Below are positions 3,554 to 52,700 of a stretch of DNA of 64,000 nt, one piece after another. The first letter of the stretch is position 1; every line of letters starts with the position of its first letter. The translations under genes and the position numbers were made by a program. This DNA comes from a virus: the IMG/VR virus record IMGVR_UViG_3300024520_000050, positions 62,001 through 126,000 of that record; one strand, 5' to 3'. Below the pieces are notes generated by a model. That model saw nothing but the letters and a program-made list of their open reading frames with translations. It was not told the DNA's origin and made no database searches.

Positions 3554-3580
3554 ATCATTACTAACTAATTAACATAAATA

Positions 3581-4522: not shown

Positions 4523-4525
4523 TAA

Positions 4526-29924: not shown

Positions 29925-29956
29925 ATACTTTTTGTATTCATTATATTAGTTAAATT

Positions 29957-29990: not shown

Positions 29991-30019
29991 ACTATTTTTA
30001 AACCACTTAAAAATATATA

Positions 30020-33000
30020 TTATAAATTACACGGATCTTTCTTAGCTTTTTCTTCTCTAGCTATCCGTATATCATTTGCGTTTGTAGTCATTTTCGACTT
30101 AGTACTTATTAAACTGTGTTGTTCAGTTACTGGTTTAATAGAAGATGATAAACCTGTTGATAACATTATTGTTTCATTAAAAGATTTCGCTTTTTTCAAC
30201 TTGGCTTCTATCTCTTTAGCTTTAGCATTAGAAAGTACCATCTTACTCTGTTGTTTATGTTCCATTATATTCTCTGGTTTTTCAGGAGTAAATAATGGCA
30301 GATTTTTTGGAATAAATTTACCATAACCTTCATTAATTAATGATTCTATCAGATTCCAATCTAACATTTGAGATAGATCTTGTGATTGAGTATCTAATTT
30401 GAAATATTCAGCATTACCTGTTCCCGAATGAGTATCTCTTTCAGCTCTAACTTTTTCAAGTTGTTTCTTAAGTTTAATATTCTTAGGAAGATTATCTCTA
30501 ATCTTAAGTAAATTCACAAGAACAAAATCAGGTGATGATTTTTGTACTTTATTTGTTCCAGTTGCAGAATTTCTAGCAAACGCCCACAAACTTCTAGCAT
30601 TTTTACCATGAAGTTTTAAAGCATCTATGATAGCATGTTTAATATTACTACCATTTATTTGCTTTAAATTAGATAAATCAGAAGTATTCAATGTAAGCAC
30701 TTGGGTTCCTGTAGTTGATTTATTCTTATCGGCAACTGTAATAAATACATCACTACCAATAGCTTCATTTAACACAGTTACTAATTCTTTAAATACTTTA
30801 GTATTTCCTTTAGGACCAAATAAATAACCGTCTTTACTCATATTAGTAAATCTAACATCAAATAATGACTGATCACCTCTTAATTTTCTTTCCATTACTG
30901 ATATTTTACCATACTTTTCTGTATTGAAATTAAAATGTAATCCTTCAGGTCTATTGATCATAATATAATCATTAACCTTTTTAGGGCTTACAAATCCATG
31001 GAAGTTATTACTGACAGTTAAGTCTTTTTCTAAAGCTTTTAATTTATCTTCAGTAATAGTACCTTCATCAATAACAATATTATCCTTTTCTGTAATTACT
31101 AAATCTAATTCTTTCATTTGTAAAGCTATTTCACCAGCATTATCACCATACTTTCTATGTAGTTCATTTTTCATAAAGTTCTTGTAATGATTAGATTTAT
31201 TTTGATTTAAACTTAAATCATAACCCATAAAGAATCTACCATGTCCAACAAACTCACCTACTGCAGGATACATTTTAAGATACACAGCTCTTCCTCCTCT
31301 GCTACCATCATACGGTTTATTAGAAAAACGCATGATTTCATTTCCTTTTCCATCAATTGCTGGAATACCAACAATCCCTACTTTATACATAGTTTGTGTT
31401 TTACTATCAAACTTGTTCTGAAGTAAGAAAGGAAATTTAGCTTTTGGTGAACTAGCAAGTACACTATATCCATAAGTATCATTACCAACTGTTTTAACAT
31501 TTGGTACATATTGTGTATTACGTGATAAGAATTGATACTCAAATTGATTTAATAATTTAACTTGATCATCTTTAGATAATACATCAAAGTCTTCAAATGC
31601 TCTCTTAAGTATAACGCCCATGTCTTCATTAGGTATTAAATTACTAAAGGTAATAGGTGAATTATGATGTATACCTGATTGATTAATAGCAAGTTTAATT
31701 AAATCATTGTATAAATTAGTACCATTCTTCTCGTCAAACTCTTTGATTATGATAAACTCATTTCTCAATTTATTTGCTGTAGTAACATCTATTTTACGAC
31801 TTCTACTTTGAAGAGTAGAAAATTGAGCTAATGATTTTAACTCTGTATTTTTAATAAATTCTTTGTATGATTTATGTGCTTTAAGTGAACTAACTCCTAA
31901 TAACTCTTGAATTACTGCATTGTTTTTCAATTCTTTCAATGCAAGTACACTAGAGTTTTTAGCAACTTTACTAAATTTAGTTTTACTACTTAATAATTCA
32001 AACATAATTTCAGCAAGAGGAGCAGGATCACCATCTTTATTAACATAAGTATTATCTTTATGTTGTATAAATAGTTGATTAAATACAACCTCTGGATTGA
32101 ATTCATTAATTATCTTCTTACCGTTCTCATCAATTCCACGAATATCAGCCATAACAATAGCAGTAGATAGATCGTTATCAATAGTACTTCTCAATTTAGA
32201 TTTCTGATCAGAACTTACCGTTCCAGCACCTTCAATCGTATTGAACAGTTTACGTTTAGCATATGCTATCTTTTCGTTTTGTTCAAAGTAGTATAATTCT
32301 TTATACATCATAACAGCTTTCTCTATTATTTTAGTAGGTTCTGATACGATTGATTCATTCTTAATCTTATCTAGATTAGTAAATCTACCTTTGAAGTCAA
32401 CTAATTCAGCTTCTTCTAAGAAAATCTTGTTATCATCATTATTCTTCTGTGATCCTTTTGTATCAGGACTTGTAGTACGAATCATCATTTGGAAATCTTT
32501 AGATTGTCTTTGATATTCTAAAAACATATCTAAGATATCTATCTGTAATCCTTCATATATATTTTGGTTATCATTAAGGAAACTTAAAGTTTTCATAACA
32601 ACTCCTTCACGCTTAGCAGCATCAAATAAAATATATTCACCTAATCTTTCTGTACTAAACATTTTGTTTTCTTCGAAACGTTTAATTACATTCCAACGCG
32701 ATTTAATTAATTTATCAGCATTACGATCTACAGCATCTACAGCGGCTTTAGCATTAGGTAAATCATCTAATTTAAATGTTCTAAATAATTCATCAATTTC
32801 AGTATCTGCTTTTGCATTAATAGTAGAAATTAAAGCTTTGTATTCAATTGGAACACCTTGAGTAAATTGTTCAAAGTCACTCATTGCTCTTTCAACAACA
32901 TGTTTCTTAGAAACTTCACCACCAAATATCTTATTGAACATAGATTCATTAGCTTTCTGATATCTCAAGTACGTTTTAATAATAGGTTGAGAAATAAATC

Positions 33001-36000
33001 TTGTCACCCATTGTACTTCAGCTCCACCACGAAGTAAATAGAATACCATATTGGCAGTTCTGTTCGTAGCATTAATATCAAAAATATAAGGATCTGCTGC
33101 AATATCCACATAAGCATTCAAGAATGCAGACAATGTTTCAGATATCCATTCACCTTCAGAGTCTCTTTTAGCACTAAAATGTGCTTTACCCTTAAGTTTA
33201 GTATGAGGGAATATCCAACGTGGATCGGCAACATTATATTGTAATCCGGCTGCCATCGCTAATTGATGATGTGTAATATGAACTGCTGTTTGACCTACAC
33301 CTGCTTTACCAGATAAGAAGTAAACAAATTTATCAATATTAACCGATGGATCAACAATGTCAGCTAAAGCTTTATTAGCTCTTTCATCATTGTCTTTTTT
33401 ACCCCATTCCTTTATTTTTGTAAAGTAAATAGGAGCCATCGCTAAAGCAAATTTTAAATTACCTTCATCTGTTAAATTAACTTGTTGTAAATCAACAGGT
33501 TTACCACTGTGTGTGACAGTACCATTTGCATCAACTGCAAGATCACTTCCATCAATGAATTTACCATCCTTAGTAATAATACTTTCAATCACTTCATTAC
33601 GACCTTCAATTAATACTTTAGTAAGTTCATTTCGTCTTTCTTCACTTAAGAACATTTGATCAGTACTTCCTTCTGTTCCACCATACAAATTAGTAACACC
33701 ATTCTTGCTGTTCAATCCTCTAATATCAACTGCTTGATTCTTAGTAATAGTATCATCAACAGGTGCCATTAATTGTCTATAATTGTACGGTAATGACATT
33801 ATATCATTATGTAGATTAACCATCTGATTCTGTAGTCCTTCTTTTCCATTCTGTTCGACAATTGGTAATTTAGAAAAATCATCTTCATTTAAAGCTTGAC
33901 TTTTCTCTTGCTTATAAGTTCTAATAGAACCTTTAATTGCATCTCTGTAATCTTCTCTAACTTCATCCTTCTCTTTATTGATAGCTTCAAATGTTTTACC
34001 TTTGCTTTCTTTAATTGCAGGTAACGCATCTTGCTCCCAACTCCAAGTTTCACTTACTTTCTCATCAATCCATGTAGCAAAATCTTTACCCATAGTATAT
34101 TTGATAATATCATCATAAGTTTCAATTAAAAATTCTAATTTTTCGATTGTTTTTAAAAGTGGAATTGCTACTCCAGCTTCAATCTCTCCTTTAGGATCTT
34201 CAATCAATACACGAATATCTTCAGTAGTATCTTCTGTTACTTGACCTTTGAGTTCATTTAAATATGTAACAGCTAATCCTTTGAATTGAATCGTTTTCTC
34301 AATGAAATCACCCGTATACTCACTATTGGCTTTCTTAAATGTTAATATAAGATTTGTATTTAATGTATTGAATGCTTCAAGTGATGCATCAGCAAATGGT
34401 TTCAAATCCTCTTTAGACTTAGCTTTAAATCCTTTTTCTAATCCAGCTTTATGCTCTTTAAAGTCAGCTTTAATAGTTTTAAAGTTACTTGTATTTACAG
34501 CTTTAGCTTGTTCATCATACGCATCTAAATCTTCAGCACGTTCCTTAGACATATCATCTAAGAAAGATTGAATTTCATCATCTTTAACTAAAGCGATATT
34601 ATCTAAGTATGCATCATGACGTTCACGTATTGTACTATTAGTATCATCCATAAACGTATAAGCTTCAGGAGCAGACCAGAAAGTACCTAAATATCTAGGC
34701 TTCTTATAATCCATTAGATATAGATTTAACTTATCAATATCATAATCCGAACCAGCCTTAGCAACCATTTCAGTTGGTACAACAATTGTATCACCTGCAG
34801 TTGTTGGTAAGAATCTCTGTACACGCATGAACTCATTTGAGTTTAATGCCTGATTAGGAATACGGAAACCAATAACAGTAATTAATGATTTAACTTTAGT
34901 AGCTAACTCATCTAATTCTTCATTAGAACCCTCTAATTCGATACGATCTAACAAAGGATGTAATTCCTCAGCTAAATATTTATTAAGTCCATCTAATCCA
35001 CCTTTACCATTAATTCCAAATTGCTCATCAGCCCAACCAATTAAATCAGCAGGTAATGCTAACATGCAATGTGCAGGTAATGTTATATTATTTGCACCTC
35101 TTTCATAATGACGTAAATCAGGACTAGAAAAATGCATTCCATCTTTACCTTCACGTTTAAACTCAGTACCGTCACTCTTCTCTATTTTTTCAAATAAAGT
35201 AGATGCAACTTGTGGAGAACCTTCACCTTTACGTTTCTCTTTAATAACACGAGAGTTAATAATAGCAAATAATACATTCTCAACTTTCTCTTTAGCTAAT
35301 ACGTGTTCAATATAAGTAGAATCCTCTTCCAAAGAAGCAATTGAATTCTTTACATTATCAGACATATTTCTATCCTTAGCCATTTCTAAAGCTACATTAA
35401 CTAAACTTGTTCTATTACCTATATGATATCCAACAATGTTTCCATTTTCAGTACCGTCGTGAGTAATAGGACTTAATTCAAGTTCCTTAATTAACTTATC
35501 AAAAGGACGTTTGTATAATTCAACTTGTATATCCTGATATTGTTTATATAATCCGTACATTGGAGAAGCTTCATACTGCTGTTCGGGGGTTAAATTATCC
35601 CAATTAGCTTTTACTTCTTCCCAATTATCACGAGCTGCATCTTCAATTTGTTCAATAGGTAATCCTCGATATGCATTCCCTTCTTTCAGTAATTGTATTT
35701 GATTCTCCATGTAATCAACTGGTACACCAGCTTCAATCATATTAGAAAGAATTAACTTTCTAAACTGAGTCGATGCTGTAATCTTACCTTTCATACTTGG
35801 AGATTGATCTAACTGTACACCAAAGTATTGGTATGATGTAGTTTGTGTAAGTACTTCGTCTACATTTAATGCAAATTCACCATTTTCATTATATAATGTA
35901 TTACTCTTTCCATCTTCTTTCAACTTTCTACCAAACTTATTAGCAGTAGTAAACTGAGCTAAAGTAACTCCTTTCTGTTGCATTATGTCATTTAACTTAG

Positions 36001-39000
36001 ATAAGTTAGTATCTTTAATCAACTGTGGAATTAATGGAAATACAGAGTGCTTATAACCTGTAGGTACAAATAAATTAGTGTCTTCATTTACTTCAGTTAC
36101 TTTAGAACCACTTGACTGATTAGAACTTTCGTTTAATGCCATAGGTCCTGTGTATTGAGTTTTAAGTACTCTAAATAAGAATAACTCTTTATCAGATAAT
36201 TCTTTACCTTGTATAATTTTATTATATGCTGCTTGATGCTTAGGTTTCCAATCTCCTGCTTTAAGTAGGATTTCTTTATACCCAGCCATTGTAGTATACG
36301 CTTGTGCATCTGCTTCTTCCATTTTTAAATATGGTTTCAAATAAGATGCAACCTTATCTTGTATTTTATCCTTTGATAATCCATCTTCTAAAAATGATTC
36401 AGAGAATGCTTTTCTCAATTTAGATACTTGTGGATAATTAGTAATATTACCAGCTGCATCTTTTTCAATATTGTCTTTGGATGCATCTAATGAGTTTCCA
36501 TCTTTATCTAAATAAGTAATAACACCATTTTTGATTTCAATATCAGCAACTTGATCTTTAGCTAAGTAAGACATTGTCAATACTTCTTCTAATATCATAG
36601 ATTTAAATGTACCATCATAGCGTTCTCCACTTAAAATATAATCTGGATTAAATCCAAGTAGAGGCTGTATTGTAATATCATCAATGTTCTTATCAGCTCC
36701 GATAAGAGCTTGTAATGCATCTCGTCTAGTTTTATCTAATGCTTTTGATAGAACATATTCATTGTTTATTAAAGCTTGTAATTCAGTAATATTTAAACTT
36801 TCAAAGTTAATAGTTCCATTTTCATCTTTAAGCACTACACCATTAGTTTCATTCAATACTTCATCAACTACTTTATCCATAACAGAAATCTTCTTAGTAG
36901 AATTCATCATTGACATTCTCTTAAAGAATGCATCTGAATTCTTATACATAGCAGGATCTCCTACAAATAATTTAGATTGTTCAATGTATGCACCAGTTTG
37001 AATCATATTGAAATCATATAACATTTCAGTTAATGCTGCTTCATTAAGTGCATCAATATCAACGTTTCCATCTTTATCTGTGAAATATTGAGTTGACTGT
37101 TTATCAATATATTCACCTAATAAATTAGATGGAATACCTGTAAATACCATATGAGAAGCGTTATCTTTAAATACTTCAGAAGGTTTATTTGTAACTTTAT
37201 TCCATTGCTTTTTAGTTTTAAAACTATCAGGAATAAGTCCTAATAAACCTTCTTCTCTAATTGTCTCTTTTACCTTTTTAGCTTTAGCATAAAAGAATTT
37301 ATCAAGACCATCATTAAAGTCATTTATATGTAAATCAAGATGTGCTTTAATATCAGCTAATGATTTACCAGCTTTAACCTTAGCTTTGATAGAACGTTTC
37401 ATATCTTCAGAAATCTTACTATCTGAAAAGAATCTAAAGTCACTACCTTTTTCACTGTTTCTAGAATCCTTACCATAAAATTGTAAATCTTGACCAACAC
37501 CAAGTTCATATTGAACCATGGCATTAATTTCATCTAATAGATAACCATAGTATGCTTTCTTAGCATTATCTCTGGTTCCCGGTCCTGCTTCAGTATAAAG
37601 CTTTTTAACTGCTTTAGTTTTACTATCTCTAAATACAAATGAATTCTCTGTACCACGATCTGCAGCTCTAAAGAATGTATAGTATCCTTGCATAGTTGAA
37701 CTAATCATCATTGACCACTTATCAGGAGAATCTAATTCTTTGTTTACAATACCATCTCTGATACCTTGAGCTATAAGTCCATTAAACATTCCTACTTCAA
37801 TAGTAGTATTACCTTCTTCTAGCCAATTTCTTACTACTGAATTCTTAGTAAATACATTGAATAAATGAGGTACTTCTGTACGAAGATCTTGATTAGGATC
37901 AGCAACAGCACTATTAATTCTATTAGTAGCTATTGATAAGAAATGATTTAAAGTAGCAGCATAAATTGTTTTCCCATCAACACTCATATGTTGATTATCC
38001 ACAACTTGATTAGTTACATCAGCAGTATATTCAGCTAATGATTTCATAGTAGCATCAATAGTTCTATCAGTAAATAAAGAATAGAATGGATCATCTGCAT
38101 TTTTCTCTAATGCTTGAGCTATACTATCTTTATCAAGTAATAATTTAAAGATGCTACTTTGTCCATTCTTTGCCATGATTAAATTATTAATATCAGATAT
38201 ACTATTAACTTTCTTAATCTCAATACCCACCGTAGCTAATGCTGTACGTAAGCGTTTAAATGCTTTTTCCTTAGCTTTATTTTCATTAGGTGCATTATGT
38301 GCTCCAGTATAAATATTTTCTGCATCACTTACAAGTCCAATAAATGCTTTTGCAACAACGGGATCCAAAGCTTTAACATCAATTGTTTTATCTTCTTCAG
38401 TAACAACTGACTTATCAACTAATGCATCATTGAAAGATTCTTCCCATCCACTTAATATTTTATCAGATGTTTTATATCTATTAGCATCAATATATTTAAT
38501 TTTACCTTCTCTATCCATTCTCGCAAGTAAAAACTTAGGAGAGAATTTAGAAAATGTTTGAATAAATTGATTTAATATATTTAATTCATCTAATGTAATG
38601 TCAGTATTTGCACTACCGTCAGCATTCATTATCTTACGTAAGATGCTATCTTTACCAACTAATGAACGTAAAGTAGAACCTGTAGTATATTGACCTTCAG
38701 CTTGCATTACTTCTGTTAAAGCAGACATGATTTTATCTCTATCACCTGGTGTATTAGATAATTTCTTAACTAATAAGTTATAGATATCATTGAATTCATT
38801 AGGTGAGGGTAATCCTAAATAACTAGTTACATTTTCATATACTTCTTTGTTATTTTTAGATTTCTGTTGATTTTTGATTTGATTACTTAAACTAGCAATC
38901 AATAATTTAATTGCAGGCGGAACAGAATCCTTTTGATTACGTTCTGTTGAATTATCAAAGAATGCTTTATCTTTAACTGCATGAATTTCATCATCCATCA

Positions 39001-42000
39001 TTGCATCATCAATAGCATCTTCAGAGAATTTAAATCCTAAATTATTTATTTGATTAGTATGCATACGAACAAGTTCATTGAATCTCTGAGCTGTATCTTT
39101 ATCTAAATTACCTTTTGTATTAGTAAGAAAGAAATTATTATACAAATTATTAATAGCTTCTATTTGTGCATCAATATCTGCTTTCTTAGTTTTAGTTCCC
39201 CTTAAATAACGACGGATCATATCTTGTACAACTAAATTCCCTCCAGTTCTATTAGCATATTGCCAGCGTCCTTTTGCAGGTCTACCTTTGCGTTCCCATG
39301 AACCAATTAAATCATGCATTCCTTTTACATACTTATGCATCTTTGTTCTTATACTATTATATATCTCATCGGTCACGAGTTTATTTGCAAAGAATGCATC
39401 TGCATCTTCACTGTTACGGAATAAATCGAATAAAAAATGTGTCATACCTCCCATGATAGATGATAACTCAACTTGTGAGATATCAATACCATTAAAGTGG
39501 TAAGTTGACGTTAACTGCTTATTAACTTTTGACATTTGTTGTTGTTTAGACGGTTTAAAATTATTTTCAATCGTATCAACTAGCATGATCAATGTATCTT
39601 TGTAGCCATCTAATGATGAGTCTATATCGGATTCACTTTGATCAAGTAAATTTTTAATAAATGTATTCTGTCCTTGTTTTAATTCTGTAGGTGTAAGTTG
39701 ACTTACTTCTTTGCCATTGAACATTACATCTATGTGAGTTTCAAAAAGAGGTTCATTTTGTAACTCATCCATAAATTTCATATACTCTGTAGGTGCAAGT
39801 ATTCCAGCTAATAACTGAGAATACTCCTCTTTATTCATATGTGCTTGAGCATCATCTTTACTAATATTTAATTTATCAGTAATAACATAAGTACCCATTA
39901 AACTGTATTGATCATCTTCATCAAATCCTTCTTCAAATTTAGCTTTCAAATCATCAGAACTCATAGATAACATTTCTTTGTATTCAGCATCACTTATTTC
40001 ACCAGATAATTGATCACTAATACTATCAGTGAATTCATTTGGCTCTGGCCACCAACTTAGAGATTCTAATTTATCCCATAGTTGATCAGTTAATGGTTGA
40101 TTAGGATCGATTTTAACAGCTTTCTTTTCTACTTTGATAGTAGGAGCTACCTCTCCTGGTTTAACTTCATCAGAAGGCGTTATTATAGGTTTAGTAACTA
40201 CTGTAGTAGGTTTACTTGAATATATAACATCTCCTTTAATATCTTGAAGTATACCAACTTTATTCTCACGGAAATGAGCAGCTCCAACCTCAAGTACTTC
40301 TTCAAGTACATTACCTTTAATCAAATCAATATTTAAACTCTTAAGTATATTACTTACGATATCAATAAATTCTTGGAATATATTTTTAATACCACGTTTA
40401 GTTTTCATACCTAATTCTTTAACAGAAACACTGTTTAAGAATGTTTGCCAATCAGTACTATTCATAGTATTAGCAAAGAATTCATTCATTGAGTTCTTTT
40501 CTGTTAAACCTAATGTTGTCATTAACTTATCTACATCTCCACCCGAAGTTTGCAATGCATCTGTAAATTGTCCTTGTGTAGTTGAAGTTGAATTAAACAT
40601 CCAATACGCTAATGAACTAATTGGTTTACCATTAATTTCAGATGTATGATTTAATATAGCATTATCTTTACCTGTTGTAGCTAACCATGTAACTAGTTTA
40701 TTTCTAATATCAGTTAAACGTGCTTTATGACCTTGGAGATCTTTATTACCATCTACATCAATTCTATGAATTAATTCATGTGCAATAATAGGGGCTAATT
40801 TATCAGCAGTTACATTACTACGAATTAAAGCACCTAAAGCAAGTTCAATAGCAGTATCTGCATCATCTCCTGTCTTAGAATTAGCAAGTTTAGCATTACG
40901 CCATAAATGCGGAGTATATTTAATTTTTAATCCAATATCTGATAGTTTTAATACAGACATAATTAACTTTACATGGGTTGGATCTGTAATACTAGCATTT
41001 GGATTTACAGCTTCTCCTGGAATTTGAATTAAACTAGCTATATTAGTATTCTCCGCTGGAGTAAAAGTAAGATTCACATTCGGAGAACCACCTACACTAT
41101 CAGATATTAATGAGAATACATTAGCGTCTTTACTATTTGAGTTTCTTCCAACACTTAAAGTTGTTCCAAACTCTTTAGCATTTCCACTTGTTAAATATGG
41201 TAAATACTTAGTTAAAAACTCAGTATTCATTTTTAAAGTATTGATTGTTTTTTCAATACTTTCTCTATTATCGTCAGTTATTTGAGACTGCATATGAGGA
41301 AATACTATAGTCATATAATCTTGTATACTCTTAATAGTACCACCAAACGTAGCACCTCTACTTTCATTATGTAATGTACTTCCTGAAATAATTTCTGTTT
41401 CGGTACTAATATCAGGGAAGTATTTTTTAGCACTATCTATTTGATCTTCTTCTATTAATGTAAGTTCTCCTTTTTTATTAACTAAGTAAAAGTCAGTATA
41501 TAATATGTCTGCTATTGTCATTTCTTGCATGACTATCATACCTTCTTTTGCTGCGACAGCAGTTATTTGAGTATGCCACTGTAATGGTTTTTTACTTACT
41601 TCTCCTCCTGAAACTGCAGTATCTTCACGATAGTTATTTGCAAATACTATTTTATCACCTGGTTTTAATACAGGAATTTCAGTATTAACTATTTTAGCTA
41701 ATGTAGTTGGTTTTTTTGACGCAACAATAACAGGTTTGACAACATCAAATTTTAAATCACTAATATTATTAGATGTAAGAAGTTCTCCATTAAATGCTAA
41801 GTCACCATCTATTGCAGTAAGTTCACCTTTAATATTACCTCTCATTACTTTCTGTCCAAGTTGAAGAGTTTTACCATTTACCTTTAATACATCAGCTGTA
41901 ATAACTCCACCATTTTCATCTTGTAATGAAGGTTTAAGTGACATGTATTTACCAACTACAGAAGTTTTAACACCTATCTTACTTAATTCATCTGGATTAA

Positions 42001-45000
42001 GTACATTAGATTTTAAGATCTGTTTCATGTATTCATTGTAACTATCGTATTTTCTAACTACAATTTCTTTAGTTGTAGCATCAATTTCTGGATGATAATA
42101 TTCATTCTTAGCAACATCTTCTTTAACTAATTGAAAATGAACGTGTTTACGTTTTTCTTTTAACATTTCAATCAATCTAGGTACTCCCCAATTACCATGT
42201 GTATCTGAGATTTTTTGCCCAGCAAGATATTCTACTAATGAACTTATTGGGAAAAAAGGTGCATTTGGAACTCTTCCGTCAGCTTTATCTTTTATATATT
42301 GTTTATCAGCAAAATGGATCTTACCACTTTTGATCCATATCATAAATGGTGTAACTGGATTGTCTTTACTTGGTCCACCCCAATTTAATACTTTATTCAA
42401 CAGACCAATATTTGATAGATCTTTACCATGAGTAACTAAATTCATAGATATTTTCTCAGTAGTCCCAACTACATTGAACTCACCTGTTTTATTAAACTCA
42501 CCTTTTCCTTTTGGAACTATATGTGTGATTAAACGCAATACAGTTTCAATATCACTTGATTTTTTTACACTGCTTTTAGGATCAACATAAGTCAATTTAC
42601 CAGATTGAGTAGGTGTTAAACTACCATCTTTACTCTTAATATAAGGTACACCAGATACAACTGTACGATCAGAACCATTTACTTGAATTATAGCAGTACC
42701 TTTAGAAGTTTCACTTCTTACTACTCCATCAAATGTATCTTCACTAAATAGATGTTCTACTGATCTAAATTCTTTACCATCATCAGGTTTACGTTTAAGC
42801 ATATCACCTTCCGATACATTACCAATTTCAGTAAATGCCTTCTTGCCAGAATTTATATGATCAACTATTAGTTTGCGATAATCTTGCATATCCTGCATGA
42901 TTTGCTCTCTAACAGCCTTTATTAAATCAACAACAGGTTCAGCTGCTTTATCTGTACTATTCGTTGTATGATATACTTTATCACCAAATATAACAGTGTC
43001 TCCGAATTGACCTAATTTAGTATAACCTTCGTAATTACTTTCTTGTAATTTATTTACAATCATATTCTCACCCATTACTAAACTGAATCCAGATTTAGTA
43101 GAATCATCTTTTCTGATATTAGGTATTGTACTAAATACTAAATTATAATCAACTGCTTTATCTCCTTCAAGCCCATACTTTAAGTCACCGTCTTTATTCA
43201 TATAAACACGCTCGCCTTTATTATTAACAACTACAGCATAAATACCAGGATTATCAATATCAGCTTGTAGTGCTTCTTTATCACCTACATAACTCTTATT
43301 ATGTAATTCTTTCTCTCCTGTTTTTGGATCAATTTGAACTATTGGTAACTTATTCATAGAATCATTCTCATCACGAACTATTCTAGGATCATTTTCTGTA
43401 ACACCAGGTTTACTTAATTGAACATATTCAACTTTGAAATTATTCTTAAGATCTTTCTTATTATCAATATATTTATTCATGAATTCCATATGATGTAAGT
43501 CATGCGGATTCTGTGTCATCAATGGCAAACCATCTGCGGTATATTTTCTAACATTGTTAGTTTTATCATAAGTAATATGGCGAGGTACTGTAGAATAAGG
43601 TGTTATTTTACCTCTAGTCCAACTAGATAATTCTTCAACTTTCTTACCAACATCTCCTTCAATCATGTTGCCATCTAGACCCATTTCTTCATCTAACTTC
43701 TTATATGCAGTTTGTTCTTTGGTATCAGTAGTTTTTTCAGCTTCATCCAATGTAGTACTTAATTCTGGATTATCAAAATTAAATATAGCAGTCACAATCT
43801 CTTTAGAATTCTCTAAACTTTTTTGCGCATCTTCTAGTCTACGTAAATCATTTTCTTGTGCTTCACGAATATCTAAAAGTACACCTAATCGTGAATCTTC
43901 TAATTCTATTATATCAACTTCAGTTAAAGTATCTAAGTCATTTAGATCACTTTCCCACATCTTAGCAACTAAATCTGAATATTGTTCATAACCAGTAAAT
44001 TGCTCAATTATTTTTTTACGTTTTTCAAAAGTTTCAGGAGACATTCCTGGATCTTCAGTTTTTAATGCAGCTATTAATTCCTTCTGTAATTTAATAGACT
44101 TATCTAATTTAGCTAACTCTAATACATTGGTTTCATAATGATTAGTGAATTTTGCTATTTCAGCTTCTATATCTTTAAGTAATTTATTATTACTATTATT
44201 ATCAATACTATCACTAATATAACTGATCATATCATTCATAGTACTTAACTCTGATTCTTGCTGGAACTCATTAGAATTTTCAGCTAGTGCATGTTTATAC
44301 TCATTCAACTCATGTCTTTCAGTTTCTAATTTAGTTATCTCTTCAGCTAAATCATTTAACTTGGTAAATAAGTTATGATGAGTATTCTGGTGATCTGACA
44401 TAATTTTATCAGCATTATCAGATAAAGTAGTTAAATTATTATAATGATCTACTTGATTACCTTTAAGCTTCTTATCTATTCTACTAAGTAAACGAATAGT
44501 ACCATTATGTGTATCTTTTAATTCTTTAACTTTGAATTTAACACTTTGCATTTTTTGCTCAGCATCGCCTAGGAATGCTTTAATTACTTCCTTATCAGCT
44601 TTATCTTTTATAATAGAATCCTTAGTAAATTGAATTGCACTATTGATTTGTTCAAGAGTCATATCACTAGCATAATCCATCTTAGTTAAGACCTTATCAT
44701 TTTGGTCATGTAACTTATTGAATGCGGCCAACTCATCAATCATTATAGATAAATTAATACCCATATCTTGTGATATTGCACCACTTTCGGCCATGTTCTC
44801 GATTATATCAAGTATTGCATCGGCATCAATTTTACCGTCTACATACAGGATGTCAGCTATTTTATCGAGGTATTCTTGAAGTGCGTCGTTATCATTCTTG
44901 AATTTATATTTTCCTATTTGTTCAAGTTTATCCATAATGGCATCACGCAGTTCAGACATATTACTTATATTCCTCTGATATTGCTTACTATTTAATAATC

Positions 45001-48000
45001 CAAGAAGTTGTTTCTGTAACTTCTTATTCTCCTTAATATTAGTGTCAACTCTATTTAAATTCTCTTGTTGGGTAGCAATAACATCTTCCCACTTTTCTAT
45101 ATCATTATATAACTGTTGAATAGGTAATCTAAGTTCATTCAACTTAGTATCTACAAAACCAATATCTTCAGTTACATTATCAAGTAATTGTGCATAAGCT
45201 TCATACTTTACTATTTGATTCTCCCAACTATTAATACTTCTATTAATACTACTTCTTAATTTTCTGGCTTTGTTATACTCTTTATTAAGTTTAGTTATTT
45301 GACCTTTGTGATAACCTAATGATCTTTTACTACCTTCACCTTTATTAACTATAGCTTCATGCTTAATTATCTCATCTTTAATCTCTTCAAGTCTTACATC
45401 TAATTTATGACTTTTCCAAGCTTGTTCTTCTACTTGATCACCTAATTTATAAAGTTTATCTTGTAATGCTTTAGTTTCACTATCAACAATTTCTTTTTGA
45501 TCAGATGAAAATTGAGCTATAATAGATTCCATTTGTACAACTAATGGATCTGCAAAATCTGTAGATGCATTAGTCAACTCTTCACCATTTTTAAGTGCTT
45601 CAGCTTGTGCCTGTAAATATGTACGTAATTCTACTAAATCATTAAATGTATCAATGATATCTTTATTACCTTCAATTGCAGCATTACGTTCTTCTATACT
45701 ACCATTAAGTAGTTTAGTTTTCTCTTTATTTAGACTCTTAAGTCTAATCATTTTAGCAATATATGCTTTCATGTAAGTATCTCTAGCTTTAGATACTTCA
45801 TTATCTTGTGGTGTACTAGTCTTAATATTCTTCTGTAAATTATCATAACTTAATACAACAGAAGGTTGAATAGGTGTTTTAGTTGGTTCAATTTGATTAC
45901 CTGTATCAATTGATATTTTCCAACTAGCTTCTCTAAAATTAGCTAATTTTGCATTATCTTTACCTTCAATTTTAGCTACAAATTTACCTTTATATTTAGC
46001 TGCTTTACCTACAAGAACATAACCTTTACCTTTTTCTTTCCTAGTATATATATTTGTACCTTTTTGTAATTCCCATTTATGAGTAATAGGTACCATTCTA
46101 CCTCCTGGTATCTTCTGATAATAAGAACCAATTGCCATTCGTTCAATTATACCATCATCGCCCTTATCAATTTCATATGTGAGATTACGTTTGACTATAA
46201 TACTATTATCTTTCTTGTTAGTTGTAATATTATACAAGCTCATATCTTGAGGTGGTACAATATTTTTAAGTGAATTAGTTAATACAGTTAATTCACGTTG
46301 TTTTAATTCTTTCTTTTTAGTTAATTTCTCACGTTCTTTCTTGAGTGAATTTAATTTCTTAATTAAATCACGTCTACGTGTTGCTTGTTTACTAAGTAAT
46401 TTAATAGGTGTTTTAATAGAATTATCAATAGGAAGACCTAATATAGTATTAACTTTATTTAATTCTTCTATAGCCTTATTAAATGCTTTTACATCTAAAC
46501 CTTTATCAAATGAATCTTCATCTTCATACTGTTTAAGAGCAGTTGCTCTATCTTCTTTCTTTATAGTACCTAACGCATTAGTATATTTAGTTTCATCTTT
46601 ATCTAACTCATCTAATTGTTTATCAACATTTTTTATAACTTCATTGATAGGATTCATTAAAGTTTCTTGTGAAGCAGTAAAATTCTTTTTATACTGCTTG
46701 AATGCTTCTTGGCTACCCGGCTTTAATTGAGACTTGTAATAATATGAATGAATAGCCATTGATGTAAATTCTTCTTCATGTAAAGCTTCAAATTTATATT
46801 CTCCATTTACTTCATCATATACTATACGACCAGGAACATTATGGAGTCCCCAATGTATTCCACCACCTTCTTCTTGTTTTTCAAGTAAATTATTTATTTG
46901 AAACTGGAACCATCTTCGTTTAAATATTTCAAGTGCTTTATTATATTCAATTTGTCTTAACTTATCTTCACCTTCTTGACTTGCTAATTCATCAAATATA
47001 CGATCTAATTCTTTAGATTTTTCTACTGCTTTAAGCTTCTTATTATATATTTCAGTTTGCTCCTTAGATTTAAGAGGTTTAATTCCTAATGCTTCAATGC
47101 GTTTATCATATGGTACAGCAAGAGCAGCTTCACGATGTTTAACTTCCTTAGCTGCCTTATCAATTTCTTTAATCTTACTTTCTACTTCATCATGGTGTTT
47201 TTTTGCTCCTTCAGTAGTAGCCGTATTTGCTTTACTAGATTTAGTAAGTTCCAGCATTTCTGCTTGTAAACGAGCATGATCTTCTTTTAATGCCTTAAGT
47301 CTTCGATCATAAAGAAGTATTTTATTCTTTTCTTTTTCAATCTTAAATGCTTCATCATACTTAGCTTTAGTAGATACTCCATCTTCATCTATTTCAGTTA
47401 AATCTATATCTTCTGATTGAGCTTGTGTAGCTATTTCTGCATCATGTACTTTCTTAGATTTTTCTTCTAAGTTTTTAATATCTTCAGTCAAAATATCATA
47501 ACTCATTCTATTTTTAAATAAAGCACGAGCAACATTACCAGAACGTTTACTATTGTATTCCATCCAACGATCGTAGTATTCATCTACTTTAGTCATGGCT
47601 TCATCAGCACGTTCTTTATAATTTTCATCATATCCTGCTTCCATAGCTTGTTCAGGAGTAAGATTTTTCATTTCATTTAATTGAGCCATTAAATGATCTT
47701 TAGTATTACTTTCGAATGATTCCATTGCAGTACGAGCTAATGAGAATTCTAATAATTCATCCTGCTTTTTACGAAGTTCTTGTTCGTTCATATTATCGAA
47801 CTGCTCAGAAAGTTCTTTCTTTTTTGTATCTAAAGCTTTTTTACCTGCTTCAGTATCAAGATCAATTCCTCCTGAATTAACCACTTCTAATGCAGCCCAG
47901 CCTGCAACAATACTTTCTTTTTGTTCTTTATTAAGAGTTTCTTTACCATTGTCAATAACATCATTAATATCAGATATAGTTCTACCTATTTGGGCTTGAT

Positions 48001-49693
48001 ATTTTGCTGTACCTAATACACGTGCATTCTTTTCTATATTAGACTTGAATGCTTTTAATCTATCGTCTACTTCTTTAAATTCATTTGCTTCAATTTCCTT
48101 TTTAGAATAAACACTTTTTGTCATTACAGGAACAGGATTTCCTTTACTATCAAGTTTAACTTTCTGACGTGCTTCTGCAGGTTGTTTTACTTTTTCTCCT
48201 TTCTCATCTAAAGTTGTAATATTAGATTCAATCATATCTTGAACCATTTCACCATCTTCATTCTCAACCATTACATCTTCTAATTCATATACACCATCTC
48301 CTGCATAATGTTTAACAGTTCCATCAGGATAATACTCCGTACTTTTTTGTTTCTCTTGTACAGCCTTTCCAAAACGTTTAGTTTTACCACCAAATGATTT
48401 TTCCGAACCCAATCTATGAAATAGATCAGTTGCTCCAGTTTGAGCCATACCACCTGCTAATCCTAGTACAGATGCTTCTCTTATATCTTTCCATGTTGCA
48501 TCACCATATACATTACCTGTTAATAAAGGTAATCCACCTTCTATTATTCCTCTAGATTTTCTACCGCTTTCTAATGCTAATGCAGCTTCTCCTTCAGCTT
48601 GCTTTTGTGCAATTAATTCTACATTTTCTTCAGCAACTTCTTGTAATCCTTCTTTTAATCCTGAACCAAGTGTCTTATCTTTTAATGATGGTAAGAATTT
48701 TTCAGGTTTAAATCCTTTTAAATTCTTAGTGCCAGCAAGAAATCTATTAGCAGATGTCATATTCAATATAATATTAGCTCTACTTGCATTTACAGTTGTT
48801 GATGCTGCTTGTGCAGCCACTTGCTTAGCATATTCTTCTCCATAACCCATTCCTTTAGCTTTATCATAAGTACTACCATATACTTCGGTGGCACTCATAA
48901 TTGCAGCAGATTGAGTTAATGCTGTTGATGATACTAAATTACGGCCAAAGTCAGCTGCTTTCATTTCCATTCCAACTTGTGTACCTGTTCGACCCATACC
49001 ACTCTTAGTTAATCCAGTTGCAGTTTCAACACCTCTACGTGTTAAATCGTCAAGTTTATCAATTTTACGTAAACTCTTCAGCCATTTAATACCTTGCATT
49101 CCTTTTCCAATTGTACTTGCAACTCCACCTCCTTGTGCAACAAAAGATAATGCACTAGATATTAATGATGAACCATTTTCCATCCACCATGAAGCCATTC
49201 CAGGACCTAACATGCCTGCTCCTGCTTTCTGATGTATCTTATATTGATCATTAGTTTCTGCTTTCTTCTCAGCTGCCCACTTAACTACATCAGTTAATAC
49301 TCCACTATTAGGATCATAATAACCTGGTAAATCAACAATAGCAGCTGCACCACCAATAGTGTCAAAAATAGTATTCCAAAAAATTCTATTTCCTGCATTT
49401 TTAGTTTGTTCCCATCCACCTTGTTTCTCCCACAAGTTGTCTTCATTATATATTCCACCTGGAGTATATACAGCCCCTAGTCGATCAGCTTCTTCTTTAG
49501 CATCCCAATCATAAGTTGTTTGTGCAGATTGATCATATAGATTCTTATCTTGATCATATTGGTCACGATAGTAATCAAAATCATTTGTTGCTTTTTGTCT
49601 TTTTTTAACATCCTTTACTAAGGTGTTTTGATATTGTTGTTGAGCACTAGAATTATATAAATTTTCTAAATATGCTTCTTCTTCTGGATTCAT
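30020..49693 (-). CDS. Giant polyprotein with virion RNA polymerase and zincin motifs
   Basis: This 6,557-residue protein is a single uninterrupted frame. The N-terminal 450 residues hold Gly/Ala-rich hydrophobic stretches (about 105-120 and 165-190) that could be membrane-active. About 550-1,960 is charged and largely coiled coil. A zincin-like motif AHELIHRID gives H2972, E2973 and H2976, with a possible third ligand E3071 in NEFFAN. The RNA polymerase core lies about 4,500-5,100: KHSVFPLIPQL with TTANKFG upstream, then FRIPNQALN (about 4,942-4,950), then KAGSDYDIDKLN with D4983, D4985 and D4987. A DPYIFDIN element near 5,534 also occurs with crAss-like polymerases. DxDxD polymerases of this family use a single-chain two-barrel core and transcribe early genes after ejection. 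The length far exceeds the 2,180-residue phi14:2 polymerase, so this looks like fused cargo proteins. Confidence 0.85.
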   Translation of the reverse strand: MNPEEEAYLENLYNSSAQQQYQNTLVKDVKKRQKATNDFDYYRDQYDQDKNLYDQSAQTTYDWDAKEEADRLGAVYTPGGIYNEDNLWEKQGGWEQTKNAGNRIFWNTIFDTIGGAAAIVDLPGYYDPNSGVLTDVVKWAAEKKAETNDQYKIHQKAGAGMLGPGMASWWMENGSSLISSALSFVAQGGGVASTIGKGMQGIKWLKSLRKIDKLDDLTRRGVETATGLTKSGMGRTGTQVGMEMKAADFGRNLVSSTALTQSAAIMSATEVYGSTYDKAKGMGYGEEYAKQVAAQAASTTVNASRANIILNMTSANRFLAGTKNLKGFKPEKFLPSLKDKTLGSGLKEGLQEVAEENVELIAQKQAEGEAALALESGRKSRGIIEGGLPLLTGNVYGDATWKDIREASVLGLAGGMAQTGATDLFHRLGSEKSFGGKTKRFGKAVQEKQKSTEYYPDGTVKHYAGDGVYELEDVMVENEDGEMVQDMIESNITTLDEKGEKVKQPAEARQKVKLDSKGNPVPVMTKSVYSKKEIEANEFKEVDDRLKAFKSNIEKNARVLGTAKYQAQIGRTISDINDVIDNGKETLNKEQKESIVAGWAALEVVNSGGIDLDTEAGKKALDTKKKELSEQFDNMNEQELRKKQDELLEFSLARTAMESFESNTKDHLMAQLNEMKNLTPEQAMEAGYDENYKERADEAMTKVDEYYDRWMEYNSKRSGNVARALFKNRMSYDILTEDIKNLEEKSKKVHDAEIATQAQSEDIDLTEIDEDGVSTKAKYDEAFKIEKEKNKILLYDRRLKALKEDHARLQAEMLELTKSSKANTATTEGAKKHHDEVESKIKEIDKAAKEVKHREAALAVPYDKRIEALGIKPLKSKEQTEIYNKKLKAVEKSKELDRIFDELASQEGEDKLRQIEYNKALEIFKRRWFQFQINNLLEKQEEGGGIHWGLHNVPGRIVYDEVNGEYKFEALHEEEFTSMAIHSYYYKSQLKPGSQEAFKQYKKNFTASQETLMNPINEVIKNVDKQLDELDKDETKYTNALGTIKKEDRATALKQYEDEDSFDKGLDVKAFNKAIEELNKVNTILGLPIDNSIKTPIKLLSKQATRRRDLIKKLNSLKKEREKLTKKKELKQRELTVLTNSLKNIVPPQDMSLYNITTNKKDNSIIVKRNLTYEIDKGDDGIIERMAIGSYYQKIPGGRMVPITHKWELQKGTNIYTRKEKGKGYVLVGKAAKYKGKFVAKIEGKDNAKLANFREASWKISIDTGNQIEPTKTPIQPSVVLSYDNLQKNIKTSTPQDNEVSKARDTYMKAYIAKMIRLKSLNKEKTKLLNGSIEERNAAIEGNKDIIDTFNDLVELRTYLQAQAEALKNGEELTNASTDFADPLVVQMESIIAQFSSDQKEIVDSETKALQDKLYKLGDQVEEQAWKSHKLDVRLEEIKDEIIKHEAIVNKGEGSKRSLGYHKGQITKLNKEYNKARKLRSSINRSINSWENQIVKYEAYAQLLDNVTEDIGFVDTKLNELRLPIQQLYNDIEKWEDVIATQQENLNRVDTNIKENKKLQKQLLGLLNSKQYQRNISNMSELRDAIMDKLEQIGKYKFKNDNDALQEYLDKIADILYVDGKIDADAILDIIENMAESGAISQDMGINLSIMIDELAAFNKLHDQNDKVLTKMDYASDMTLEQINSAIQFTKDSIIKDKADKEVIKAFLGDAEQKMQSVKFKVKELKDTHNGTIRLLSRIDKKLKGNQVDHYNNLTTLSDNADKIMSDHQNTHHNLFTKLNDLAEEITKLETERHELNEYKHALAENSNEFQQESELSTMNDMISYISDSIDNNSNNKLLKDIEAEIAKFTNHYETNVLELAKLDKSIKLQKELIAALKTEDPGMSPETFEKRKKIIEQFTGYEQYSDLVAKMWESDLNDLDTLTEVDIIELEDSRLGVLLDIREAQENDLRRLEDAQKSLENSKEIVTAIFNFDNPELSTTLDEAEKTTDTKEQTAYKKLDEEMGLDGNMIEGDVGKKVEELSSWTRGKITPYSTVPRHITYDKTNNVRKYTADGLPLMTQNPHDLHHMEFMNKYIDNKKDLKNNFKVEYVQLSKPGVTENDPRIVRDENDSMNKLPIVQIDPKTGEKELHNKSYVGDKEALQADIDNPGIYAVVVNNKGERVYMNKDGDLKYGLEGDKAVDYNLVFSTIPNIRKDDSTKSGFSLVMGENMIVNKLQESNYEGYTKLGQFGDTVIFGDKVYHTTNSTDKAAEPVVDLIKAVREQIMQDMQDYRKLIVDHINSGKKAFTEIGNVSEGDMLKRKPDDGKEFRSVEHLFSEDTFDGVVRSETSKGTAIIQVNGSDRTVVSGVPYIKSKDGSLTPTQSGKLTYVDPKSSVKKSSDIETVLRLITHIVPKGKGEFNKTGEFNVVGTTEKISMNLVTHGKDLSNIGLLNKVLNWGGPSKDNPVTPFMIWIKSGKIHFADKQYIKDKADGRVPNAPFFPISSLVEYLAGQKISDTHGNWGVPRLIEMLKEKRKHVHFQLVKEDVAKNEYYHPEIDATTKEIVVRKYDSYNEYMKQILKSNVLNPDELSKIGVKTSVVGKYMSLKPSLQDENGGVITADVLKVNGKTLQLGQKVMRGNIKGELTAIDGDLAFNGELLTSNNISDLKFDVVKPVIVASKKPTTLAKIVNTEIPVLKPGDKIVFANNYREDTAVSGGEVSKKPLQWHTQITAVAAKEGMIVMQEMTIADILYTDFYLVNKKGELTLIEEDQIDSAKKYFPDISTETEIISGSTLHNESRGATFGGTIKSIQDYMTIVFPHMQSQITDDNRESIEKTINTLKMNTEFLTKYLPYLTSGNAKEFGTTLSVGRNSNSKDANVFSLISDSVGGSPNVNLTFTPAENTNIASLIQIPGEAVNPNASITDPTHVKLIMSVLKLSDIGLKIKYTPHLWRNAKLANSKTGDDADTAIELALGALIRSNVTADKLAPIIAHELIHRIDVDGNKDLQGHKARLTDIRNKLVTWLATTGKDNAILNHTSEINGKPISSLAYWMFNSTSTTQGQFTDALQTSGGDVDKLMTTLGLTEKNSMNEFFANTMNSTDWQTFLNSVSVKELGMKTKRGIKNIFQEFIDIVSNILKSLNIDLIKGNVLEEVLEVGAAHFRENKVGILQDIKGDVIYSSKPTTVVTKPIITPSDEVKPGEVAPTIKVEKKAVKIDPNQPLTDQLWDKLESLSWWPEPNEFTDSISDQLSGEISDAEYKEMLSMSSDDLKAKFEEGFDEDDQYSLMGTYVITDKLNISKDDAQAHMNKEEYSQLLAGILAPTEYMKFMDELQNEPLFETHIDVMFNGKEVSQLTPTELKQGQNTFIKNLLDQSESDIDSSLDGYKDTLIMLVDTIENNFKPSKQQQMSKVNKQLTSTYHFNGIDISQVELSSIMGGMTHFLFDLFRNSEDADAFFANKLVTDEIYNSIRTKMHKYVKGMHDLIGSWERKGRPAKGRWQYANRTGGNLVVQDMIRRYLRGTKTKKADIDAQIEAINNLYNNFFLTNTKGNLDKDTAQRFNELVRMHTNQINNLGFKFSEDAIDDAMMDDEIHAVKDKAFFDNSTERNQKDSVPPAIKLLIASLSNQIKNQQKSKNNKEVYENVTSYLGLPSPNEFNDIYNLLVKKLSNTPGDRDKIMSALTEVMQAEGQYTTGSTLRSLVGKDSILRKIMNADGSANTDITLDELNILNQFIQTFSKFSPKFLLARMDREGKIKYIDANRYKTSDKILSGWEESFNDALVDKSVVTEEDKTIDVKALDPVVAKAFIGLVSDAENIYTGAHNAPNENKAKEKAFKRLRTALATVGIEIKKVNSISDINNLIMAKNGQSSIFKLLLDKDSIAQALEKNADDPFYSLFTDRTIDATMKSLAEYTADVTNQVVDNQHMSVDGKTIYAATLNHFLSIATNRINSAVADPNQDLRTEVPHLFNVFTKNSVVRNWLEEGNTTIEVGMFNGLIAQGIRDGIVNKELDSPDKWSMMISSTMQGYYTFFRAADRGTENSFVFRDSKTKAVKKLYTEAGPGTRDNAKKAYYGYLLDEINAMVQYELGVGQDLQFYGKDSRNSEKGSDFRFFSDSKISEDMKRSIKAKVKAGKSLADIKAHLDLHINDFNDGLDKFFYAKAKKVKETIREEGLLGLIPDSFKTKKQWNKVTNKPSEVFKDNASHMVFTGIPSNLLGEYIDKQSTQYFTDKDGNVDIDALNEAALTEMLYDFNMIQTGAYIEQSKLFVGDPAMYKNSDAFFKRMSMMNSTKKISVMDKVVDEVLNETNGVVLKDENGTINFESLNITELQALINNEYVLSKALDKTRRDALQALIGADKNIDDITIQPLLGFNPDYILSGERYDGTFKSMILEEVLTMSYLAKDQVADIEIKNGVITYLDKDGNSLDASKDNIEKDAAGNITNYPQVSKLRKAFSESFLEDGLSKDKIQDKVASYLKPYLKMEEADAQAYTTMAGYKEILLKAGDWKPKHQAAYNKIIQGKELSDKELFLFRVLKTQYTGPMALNESSNQSSGSKVTEVNEDTNLFVPTGYKHSVFPLIPQLIKDTNLSKLNDIMQQKGVTLAQFTTANKFGRKLKEDGKSNTLYNENGEFALNVDEVLTQTTSYQYFGVQLDQSPSMKGKITASTQFRKLILSNMIEAGVPVDYMENQIQLLKEGNAYRGLPIEQIEDAARDNWEEVKANWDNLTPEQQYEASPMYGLYKQYQDIQVELYKRPFDKLIKELELSPITHDGTENGNIVGYHIGNRTSLVNVALEMAKDRNMSDNVKNSIASLEEDSTYIEHVLAKEKVENVLFAIINSRVIKEKRKGEGSPQVASTLFEKIEKSDGTEFKREGKDGMHFSSPDLRHYERGANNITLPAHCMLALPADLIGWADEQFGINGKGGLDGLNKYLAEELHPLLDRIELEGSNEELDELATKVKSLITVIGFRIPNQALNSNEFMRVQRFLPTTAGDTIVVPTEMVAKAGSDYDIDKLNLYLMDYKKPRYLGTFWSAPEAYTFMDDTNSTIRERHDAYLDNIALVKDDEIQSFLDDMSKERAEDLDAYDEQAKAVNTSNFKTIKADFKEHKAGLEKGFKAKSKEDLKPFADASLEAFNTLNTNLILTFKKANSEYTGDFIEKTIQFKGLAVTYLNELKGQVTEDTTEDIRVLIEDPKGEIEAGVAIPLLKTIEKLEFLIETYDDIIKYTMGKDFATWIDEKVSETWSWEQDALPAIKESKGKTFEAINKEKDEVREDYRDAIKGSIRTYKQEKSQALNEDDFSKLPIVEQNGKEGLQNQMVNLHNDIMSLPYNYRQLMAPVDDTITKNQAVDIRGLNSKNGVTNLYGGTEGSTDQMFLSEERRNELTKVLIEGRNEVIESIITKDGKFIDGSDLAVDANGTVTHSGKPVDLQQVNLTDEGNLKFALAMAPIYFTKIKEWGKKDNDERANKALADIVDPSVNIDKFVYFLSGKAGVGQTAVHITHHQLAMAAGLQYNVADPRWIFPHTKLKGKAHFSAKRDSEGEWISETLSAFLNAYVDIAADPYIFDINATNRTANMVFYLLRGGAEVQWVTRFISQPIIKTYLRYQKANESMFNKIFGGEVSKKHVVERAMSDFEQFTQGVPIEYKALISTINAKADTEIDELFRTFKLDDLPNAKAAVDAVDRNADKLIKSRWNVIKRFEENKMFSTERLGEYILFDAAKREGVVMKTLSFLNDNQNIYEGLQIDILDMFLEYQRQSKDFQMMIRTTSPDTKGSQKNNDDNKIFLEEAELVDFKGRFTNLDKIKNESIVSEPTKIIEKAVMMYKELYYFEQNEKIAYAKRKLFNTIEGAGTVSSDQKSKLRSTIDNDLSTAIVMADIRGIDENGKKIINEFNPEVVFNQLFIQHKDNTYVNKDGDPAPLAEIMFELLSSKTKFSKVAKNSSVLALKELKNNAVIQELLGVSSLKAHKSYKEFIKNTELKSLAQFSTLQSRSRKIDVTTANKLRNEFIIIKEFDEKNGTNLYNDLIKLAINQSGIHHNSPITFSNLIPNEDMGVILKRAFEDFDVLSKDDQVKLLNQFEYQFLSRNTQYVPNVKTVGNDTYGYSVLASSPKAKFPFLLQNKFDSKTQTMYKVGIVGIPAIDGKGNEIMRFSNKPYDGSRGGRAVYLKMYPAVGEFVGHGRFFMGYDLSLNQNKSNHYKNFMKNELHRKYGDNAGEIALQMKELDLVITEKDNIVIDEGTITEDKLKALEKDLTVSNNFHGFVSPKKVNDYIMINRPEGLHFNFNTEKYGKISVMERKLRGDQSLFDVRFTNMSKDGYLFGPKGNTKVFKELVTVLNEAIGSDVFITVADKNKSTTGTQVLTLNTSDLSNLKQINGSNIKHAIIDALKLHGKNARSLWAFARNSATGTNKVQKSSPDFVLVNLLKIRDNLPKNIKLKKQLEKVRAERDTHSGTGNAEYFKLDTQSQDLSQMLDWNLIESLINEGYGKFIPKNLPLFTPEKPENIMEHKQQSKMVLSNAKAKEIEAKLKKAKSFNETIMLSTGLSSSIKPVTEQHSLISTKSKMTTNANDIRIAREEKAKKDPCNL

Positions 49694-49720
49694 TAATTAA
49701 TAAATTATATTTTAATTAAA

Positions 49721-52700
49721 TTACGATTTGTCTTTTTGTGAATGATCTATTGTTTCTCCTGCAGGTCTTGACTCAGTTGCCACAGATACATCTATATGCA
49801 ATCCTGTTCCCGCATCGTGATATAATGCATTCATTCCATTTTCTTTTAAAAACATATTCCCCGAATACGTATTAAAAAATCCCCATAATGCTTTCCCTAC
49901 TCTACCTGCTTCACCACTGGTTTTTATATCAACTGAATTACCTCTCATATGAGGACTTCTAGTTAATTCATCTAGTCTATTTCTATAAGCTCTTGTATTA
50001 TCTTGTAATGATCTTAATACACTTGTTAATATCATCTTATCATTAGATGATAAACCTTGGAACATTTTAAAATCAGTAGGTTTCATATTTTGTGGAATAT
50101 TGCCATTAATAATACTACTTAATAAATCATCAGTGTTTTTAATAAAAGTTTGAATTGCAGGTGTAGCTTTCATTTTACTTTGTGATCGGATATTATTTAA
50201 GTTTGTTATATCTACTAAATTCTTTGGATCTGTTAAATATTTATGACCATCAGTATCAGTATACCAAGTTTCATTAACTAACTCCTCATTAAATTTTAAT
50301 CCTAAATTTGCTTGATCTTCAATATTCATATTATCAAATGTCGTCGCATCTATTTGATAAAAACCTGTTTCATTATTTTTTGAAACCACGCCAGTAGTAG
50401 TTAAATCTTCAATTGTAGAACTGGCATTAATCTTTCCCCCAGTTACTGTAGTTCCACCTGTTAATGTTTTTTCTAACATTGAATTTAATGCATTCCTAAC
50501 AGATTGTGGAGTAGGATATTTAGTTTTATCTCGGAATATACTTCCTTTTGGAAATACATATTCTACATCTGCACCATTATCTAATTGAGTTATTTGATTA
50601 ACTAAAGATTCTGATACTTGTCTTTCTCTAGGGTATTTCTTATCTTGATATGCAAAGAAATCATCAACAGTTTCAAAAGCATGTCTACTAATTCCTTCTT
50701 CATTAATACCATAATCTACAGATCCTGCATTAGGATCTTCACCCAATGAATTACCTTTATATAATACATAATATTGTCCATTTTTAACTTGACTTTCACC
50801 TTTGCCTATGTTTGCATTAGCTTTATGTACTCTAGTTTGAGGATGATTTCCATAATTATCTATATCAGCATACAATCGTCTATTCTTTTTCAAACCATCT
50901 TTTAATTGTTTACCTGTTGTATAATATTGCATTGGTACTCCAAAGAATTTAACAGCACTATATTTATCTAATGGAGCATCATGTTCAAAGAACCATTTCT
51001 TATTGTTCTCATCAATATATTCATAATGAGCAACCATTAAGCCACCTAATTCATCTGCTTCATATCTAATTCCTTTATACGCTTTATCTAATTCTGTCTT
51101 TTCGTAATCTTGATACGACATGGTTTTACCGTCTTCTTTTAACGTTTCCCATTGTTTCTCTATCTGATTTTTTAAATGTTGCTCTTGGAAGTTTTCATCT
51201 TTACTATTTCTAAAATTTGCTGCACGTCTAGTTGTACGCTCATCACCCAACATTCCTCGAGAGCCCATTATTTGCTTTTCTTCTTTAGTTTTCTCTGCAT
51301 ATTCTGCATCTTTAGTATTCGCTGTCGAAGTTCTATATAGCGTAACTGAAGTATTTTCAATTATATCATTCATTGATTCTACTGCATCCACAAAACCTTC
51401 AATATCTCCAACTTGAGTATTAAATCTATTACTTAATTCAGTTTTATAAGTTGTTTTATAATTTTTAATAACATCTTCATTCAATATAGCATATCCATTT
51501 TTTATTGAATAACTATGAGGTGTTGCATCTCCGGCGGTACCTCGCTCATAAGGAGGATCGAAAGCTTTTGATTCAACTAAAATACTATGATATAATTTAG
51601 CATGATTTTTAGAATTAAATAAAGGGTTATTGCCTGTATATGTTTGTAAGAATTTAGTTAACTCCGGATCTTTATCAATTTCATCTTTTAATGGTGCGCT
51701 TAAACCATATCTCAATCCTTGATGTTTTCGATCTACCCCAACCTCATGAGGACCTAAATCTGAACTTTTATATTCGCCTTTTACTATTTTTTCTCGATGA
51801 TTAGCCCATATAGTTTTTAATTTAAGTATGTGATTTTTACTTTCCTCTTCAGTAAATAATAAATCACCATTACCATCTTTTGTTAAATTAGCATCATTTT
51901 CGGCAATCATATTATCAATAAGAGAAGTTAAACCGATTACTTCAGATGCTTTTTTAGTAGATTCAATTACGTTAGTTTTAAATTTACTTGATTCTTCCCC
52001 TTCTGTTCCTTCAATTATTTCTTCAACAGTTTCAATACCAAATCCAAATTGTTGACCTATCGCTACAAAATTCTCTTTTAATATTTTAGCATGTTCATTA
52101 TTAAGAAGTACTTTTTTAGTAATACCATCAAATTTGGCTGCTTTGCGTGCTTGTAATTTTTTAGCATTTTCTATTTTAGATTGAATCTTTAATAGCTTAG
52201 CTTCATATAATATTTTAGTTGCTCCACCTGGATTGACGTCAGCTAATTTTTTAGTATACAATTCTTCTAAATTGTATAATAATGGATTAATAGTAATCTC
52301 ACCATCATATCTATTTACACTAAATGTAGATAAACTCTTATCGCCCTTACTTCCATCTCCAGCCACAGTAGCTGACCACGCTAAATCATTTTTCATTACA
52401 TCTTCTAATCCTTCTGATGCTGTTACAAGTTCACTTCTTAAAAATAAATCATCTCCTAATTGCTCTACTAAAGTTTCAGCACTTTTCGTTTCAAATGTAG
52501 GATTGCCATTTTCATCAGGCTCACCAGGAAGTTTAATCATACCATCTTTAGCATCAAAATTTTCATAATTAGCCGTTGTTGTATTCTCCCAACCTTTAGT
52601 TTTATCATTTTTCTTAAAGAATATAACAGCTGAATTAGATTTATAATCTTCTCCTACTGCACCTAAACTTTGTAATTCACCTTCACCTTCAGGAATGTCA

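Follow-up and report, generated by a model that had tools for sequence, protein, structure and literature searches.

We identified, in a crAss-like phage genome of 178 kb, a single gene that most probably (we put the chance at about 85%) encodes a virion cargo polymerase in which a gp47-type cargo protein, a zincin and a two-barrel RNA polymerase (RNAP) are carried by one chain. The gene lies on the minus strand at 30020..49693 of the window, a stretch of 64,000 nucleotides within a virus record of 178,400 bases, and it runs uninterrupted from ATG to stop over 6,557 codons, with a product of ~740 kDa. An unbroken frame of nearly 20 kb had been reported in the first-pass annotation, which left the strand unstated, and that frame is confirmed here.

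The reading frame and its genome

Codon-position GC was uniform over the giant frame (GC3 0.10-0.24; GC1 0.38-0.54 except in the last 57 codons), and there is therefore no hint of joined frames. A sequencing error of that kind, a concern of the first-pass annotation, left no sign. An assembly or sequencing error that fused separate genes would fit the split state of a close relative (G001, described below) and the fact that no second assembly spans the whole gene. It is nevertheless extremely unlikely, given that the codon-position bias is even throughout, that 29 other frames were scored as full fusions, and that IMG/VR contig 3300024518_001949, which is 100% identical to the window across 15,455 bases and covers only the first 407 residues of the giant protein, repeats those codons identically.

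The source is probably a Crassvirales phage, since TerL, portal, MCP and muzzle proteins in the same record match PHROG 6681, 6547, 11589 and 15100, which we assume to be restricted to crAss-like phages. In the window, the plus strand encodes a 1,793-aa muzzle (gp44-like) protein (6617..11998; PHROG 15100, E = 5e-85) and a 423-aa protein in which the conserved segment of C1 (cargo protein gp45) recurs (15670..16941, E = 7e-23), and both genes match crAss-like loci. On either side of the C1-like gene are proteins of 1,177 and 1,081 aa (12019-15552 and 16952-20197), for which nothing significant was found in PHROGs, Pfam or the relatives. A homologue of gp49 (the RNAP-associated protein of the virion), 2,323 aa long, is encoded at 20210..27181 on the plus strand, convergent with the polymerase gene. 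Here it belongs to the muzzle-C1 cluster; the relatives seen mostly have the gene behind that for the RNAP, both being on one strand.

Just upstream of the giant gene, also on the minus strand, a 1,401-aa protein (49721..53926) carries the motif SPHMRGNSVDI...GLHIDV near its C-terminus. The last ~80 aa resemble an M15-type zinc peptidase site, and the protein is possibly a virion cell-wall enzyme; its Pfam match to DUF5715 (E = 0.0016) fell below the cut-off, and tblastn against INPHARED gave no match. Elsewhere in the record, a GroEL-like chaperonin (PHROG 5725, E = 2e-104) is encoded at record positions 49063-50622, between the portal and the major head genes, and might help giant virion proteins to fold. 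At the record's end (146001-178400) there is a cluster of 19 tRNA genes.

The polymerase and the probable zincin

Homology to crAss-like RNAPs extends over about residues 3532-6071 (31481..39100, minus strand), as judged by phmmer matches to the RNAP of G001 (residues 390-2239 of that protein), to 6vr4 and to all crAss RNAPs. Among PDB sequences, phmmer gave one relevant match, the phi14:2 gp66 virion RNAP (6vr4, 4e-30), and a profile made from the alignment with 32 IMG/VR relatives matched the same structure at 1e-125. The catalytic motif DYDID occurs once in the giant protein, at residues 4983-4987 (34733..34747), opposite DFDID of the phi14:2 enzyme. DxDxD occurs on average 2.6 times per shuffled copy of the giant protein and HExxH is present in 11% of such copies, so that the bare motifs are weak evidence. 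The context GFRIPNQ...AGSDYDIDK is not chance, and the alignment of AGSDYDIDK with GSDFDIDK of the relatives bears out the crAss-like polymerase context that had been proposed for this motif.

Searches with the polymerase by tblastn reached 98 crAss-like records. No significant match to the giant protein was found in Pfam or PHROGs, and an IMG/VR scan with the giant protein as a single query returned no relatives, whereas a scan with a profile recovered them. Marginal scores against the crAss polymerase were also obtained for GSDYDID-like frames in four large phage contigs (L124, L143, L158 and L162), which possibly belong to another RNAP group.

An AlphaFold (AF2) model of residues 4430-5610 had a mean pLDDT of 70, mostly 80-90 over 4430-5000 and from 5455 to the end at 5610. 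Between them, residues 5037-5240 (33974..34585) form an insertion modelled as long helices at low confidence. The only PDB match of the model below 1e-3 was 6vr4 (E = 4.5e-21, probability 1.0, TM by query 0.44), and the matches that came next, none with an E below 0.007, were multisubunit RNAP subunits (AR9, plastid and E. coli). The polymerase fold that had been predicted around DYDID is thus present in the model, the two-barrel fold being judged by the match of the whole model to 6vr4 and not barrel by barrel. Alignment and model together indicate that the chain contains an embedded crAss-like RNAP of the virion type with the phi14:2 fold.

A probable zincin metallopeptidase domain precedes the polymerase at residues 2851-3120 (40334..41143, minus strand), as seen by alignment with 30 crAss zincins. 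Its HELIH motif occurs once in the giant protein (residues 2972-2976, 40766..40780), 2,011 residues ahead of the catalytic motif, in agreement with the distance of about 2,000 residues given earlier. Residues H2972, E2973, H2976, E3071 and A3074 are the five invariant columns across the 31 aligned sequences, and KNIFQEFIDIVSNIL comes next, as in the crAss zincin family. In the relatives, the zincin reads YHEA[FW]H...EExLAExFR and stands about 1,310-1,775 residues ahead of the catalytic motif. The best PDB matches of the family profile were the Zmp1 Pro-Pro endopeptidases (E = 0.03).

We asked whether HELIH could be a chance motif in a chain that lacks a zincin. The frequency of HExxH in shuffled copies speaks for chance, as do the weak profile scores and the AF2 model of this part, which was of such low confidence (pLDDT 48) as to be unusable. 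On the other hand, HELIH is in the right order, N-terminal to the RNAP, the glutamate ligand E3071 of the EExxAE third-ligand motif and A3074 fit the invariant columns of the family, and the same helix follows. A chance origin is therefore unlikely, and HELIH very probably marks, as far as the alignment tells, the crAss zincin at its customary position. For the protease-like part suggested in the first-pass annotation, the ligand residues align and the position is before the RNAP, whereas the zincin profile alone barely scores and the confidence of the model is low.

The N-terminal cargo domain and the middle of the chain

Residues 23-355 (48629..49627, minus strand) appear to form a gp47-type N-terminal domain, the match being significant but weak. 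A profile of 45 gp47-family N-termini found this segment with a domain E of 8e-5, compared with 0.09 for the best of 200 shuffles; the profile was built without the giant protein, its members having been picked by an earlier iterative search that included it. Comparison of the same N-termini with the giant protein by hhalign gave P = 8e-5, and the N-terminus of G008, a fused frame of 4,726 residues, gave a match in the corresponding place (148-377 to 153-380, E = 3e-5). Fusions with gp45/gp46 or with gp49 were considered and rejected, because the N-terminus matches gp47 and the C1 homologue is encoded elsewhere, and because the gp49 homologue is a separate gene.

The domain is Gly/Ala-rich with no clear transmembrane helix. 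A hydrophobic N-terminal part had been described, and the character is there in mild form, with no 19-residue stretch of mean hydropathy above 1.4; no transmembrane segment could be found in the giant chain, which leaves the proposed membrane-active cargo unproven. The long coiled-coil parts reported at the same time are present as coiled-coil-like heptads at 526-567, 813-854, 1401-1519 and 1681-1876, all within a charged, helix- and coiled-coil-prone spacer (residues 500-2000, 43694..48196). A compositionally globular region follows (2001-2850, 41144..43693). About 2,500 residues (400-2850) gave no match, INPHARED tblastn with residues 1-2800 and 2401-4399 gave none, and the middle region did not match gp47 of G001.

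As compared with the relatives, the extra length lies mainly ahead of the zincin, in the coiled-coil part (2,971 residues before the zincin, as against 1,358 in G008), and also between zincin and polymerase (2,011 residues to the catalytic motif, as against 1,312-1,775 in most relatives).

Fused and split chains in relatives

The sequence comparisons indicate that the giant chain is a gp47-zincin-RNAP fusion with its parts in the usual order of the relatives. The fusion is not unusual, contrary to what had been thought from the sequence alone. The comparison took in 77 related frames for which the start is known. Of these, 30 (the giant frame included) were full, meaning that they had either a gp47 N-terminal match or more than 2,800 residues ahead of the motif; in 28 the start fell past the gp47 part but ahead of the zincin, and in 19 it fell beyond the zincin. 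About half of the full frames lack HExxH in the expected interval, so the zincin is not established in all of them. On the polymerase tree, the three fusion states take 11 changes, and at least 7 changes of the full state are forced by the starred branches. RefSeq holds single chains of 4,946 (cr118_1), 5,443 (cr7_1), 5,794 (cr273_1) and 6,386 aa (cr272_1), of which cr118_1, cr7_1 and cr272_1 are Suoliviridae with the full fusion; existing annotation speaks of an RNAP-associated protein "fused to zincin protease", and a review lists giant RNAPs of "up to ~6000 aa" as a hallmark (PMC10136315). Frame lengths in 40 chosen relatives were 2,333 to 4,910. Its length places the giant chain among the longest in the family, only slightly past precedent; the measurements cover only about 115 frames and there may be longer ones, so that we do not call it the longest known.

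The chain of cr272_1 (YP_010113476.1; Suoliviridae, Buhlduvirus) is near-identical in layout and length when TAG is read as Gln, with HEAFH of the zincin at 2782 (profile E = 3e-11) and the catalytic DFDID at 4401. It differs in having 37 in-frame TAG codons, a canonical zincin, no match to the gp47 N-terminal profile, and a next gene (27403-34248 in the cr272_1 locus L221) on the same strand, in the position of the RNAP-associated gene. The phi14:2 RNAP (2,180 aa) is homologous, with the same DxDxD site and fold, but it is a separate gene; gp47 corresponds there to gp67 (1,797 aa), and HExxH is found in neither chain. G001 (IMGVR_UViG_3300033144_008156), the nearest relative on the tree (36% identity, inside a 7-row clade at 98 support), shares the DYDID variant and a zincin adjoining the RNAP, but is split ahead of the zincin into chains of 2,604 and 2,331 aa and has a gp49-like gene directly downstream.

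The chain had been called a polyprotein. In a true polyprotein, the internal zincin would cut the whole chain into gp47 and RNAP pieces, at assembly or after ejection, and its position between two parts that relatives encode separately is consistent with this. Yet crAss001 (HEAFH at 2157 of 2341) and cr110_1 keep the zincin at the C-terminus of gp47, and G001 keeps it in the N-terminal part of its RNAP chain (155 of 2331), though in all three the genes are separate. Given this retention on either side of the break, parting gp47 from RNAP cannot be the sole function of the zincin. In addition, N4 is reported to package and eject a giant vRNAP of ~3,500 residues (PMC12633501), and P23-45 is reported to have a virion RNAP of 5,002 aa fused to the tape-measure protein (PMC10770324). 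Both are giant single-chain virion polymerases, as the present one would be, but of other phage groups and with other fusion partners. Obligatory cutting is thus not supported and a true polyprotein is quite unlikely; self-cutting of the chain by the zincin is possible but unsupported.

We favour a fused cargo polymerase for which cutting is not required. The chain would join the gp47 cargo protein (N-terminal domain, helical spacer and zincin) to a catalytic two-barrel RNAP that is a separate gene in other crAss-like phages, and the fusion would fix the order and ratio of the parts. In crAss001, gp47, gp49 and gp50 are virion proteins for which partial unfolding on ejection has been modelled (PMC10172136). 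By analogy with phi14:2 and crAss001, we infer that the giant chain is packed in the capsid and passes through portal and tail in a state that is at least partly unfolded, with the N-terminus probably leading, and that it refolds in the cell, where it would transcribe early phage genes with the gp49-type partner. In a variant that we hold to be very unlikely, the zincin cuts its own chain and frees the polymerase only once the N-terminal cargo part is across the envelope. If that were true, the fusion would couple ejection and the start of transcription into one ordered event, in a chain almost as large as a portal can let through.

The giant chain, roughly the largest polymerase polypeptide observed in its family, is a useful extreme for studying the ejection of such large proteins from virions. 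The comparison across relatives is of more use than this one gene. Three parts are joined or separated at two boundaries that recur, with no fewer than 11 changes on the tree, so that fused and split phages can serve as a natural experiment on the importance of cutting.
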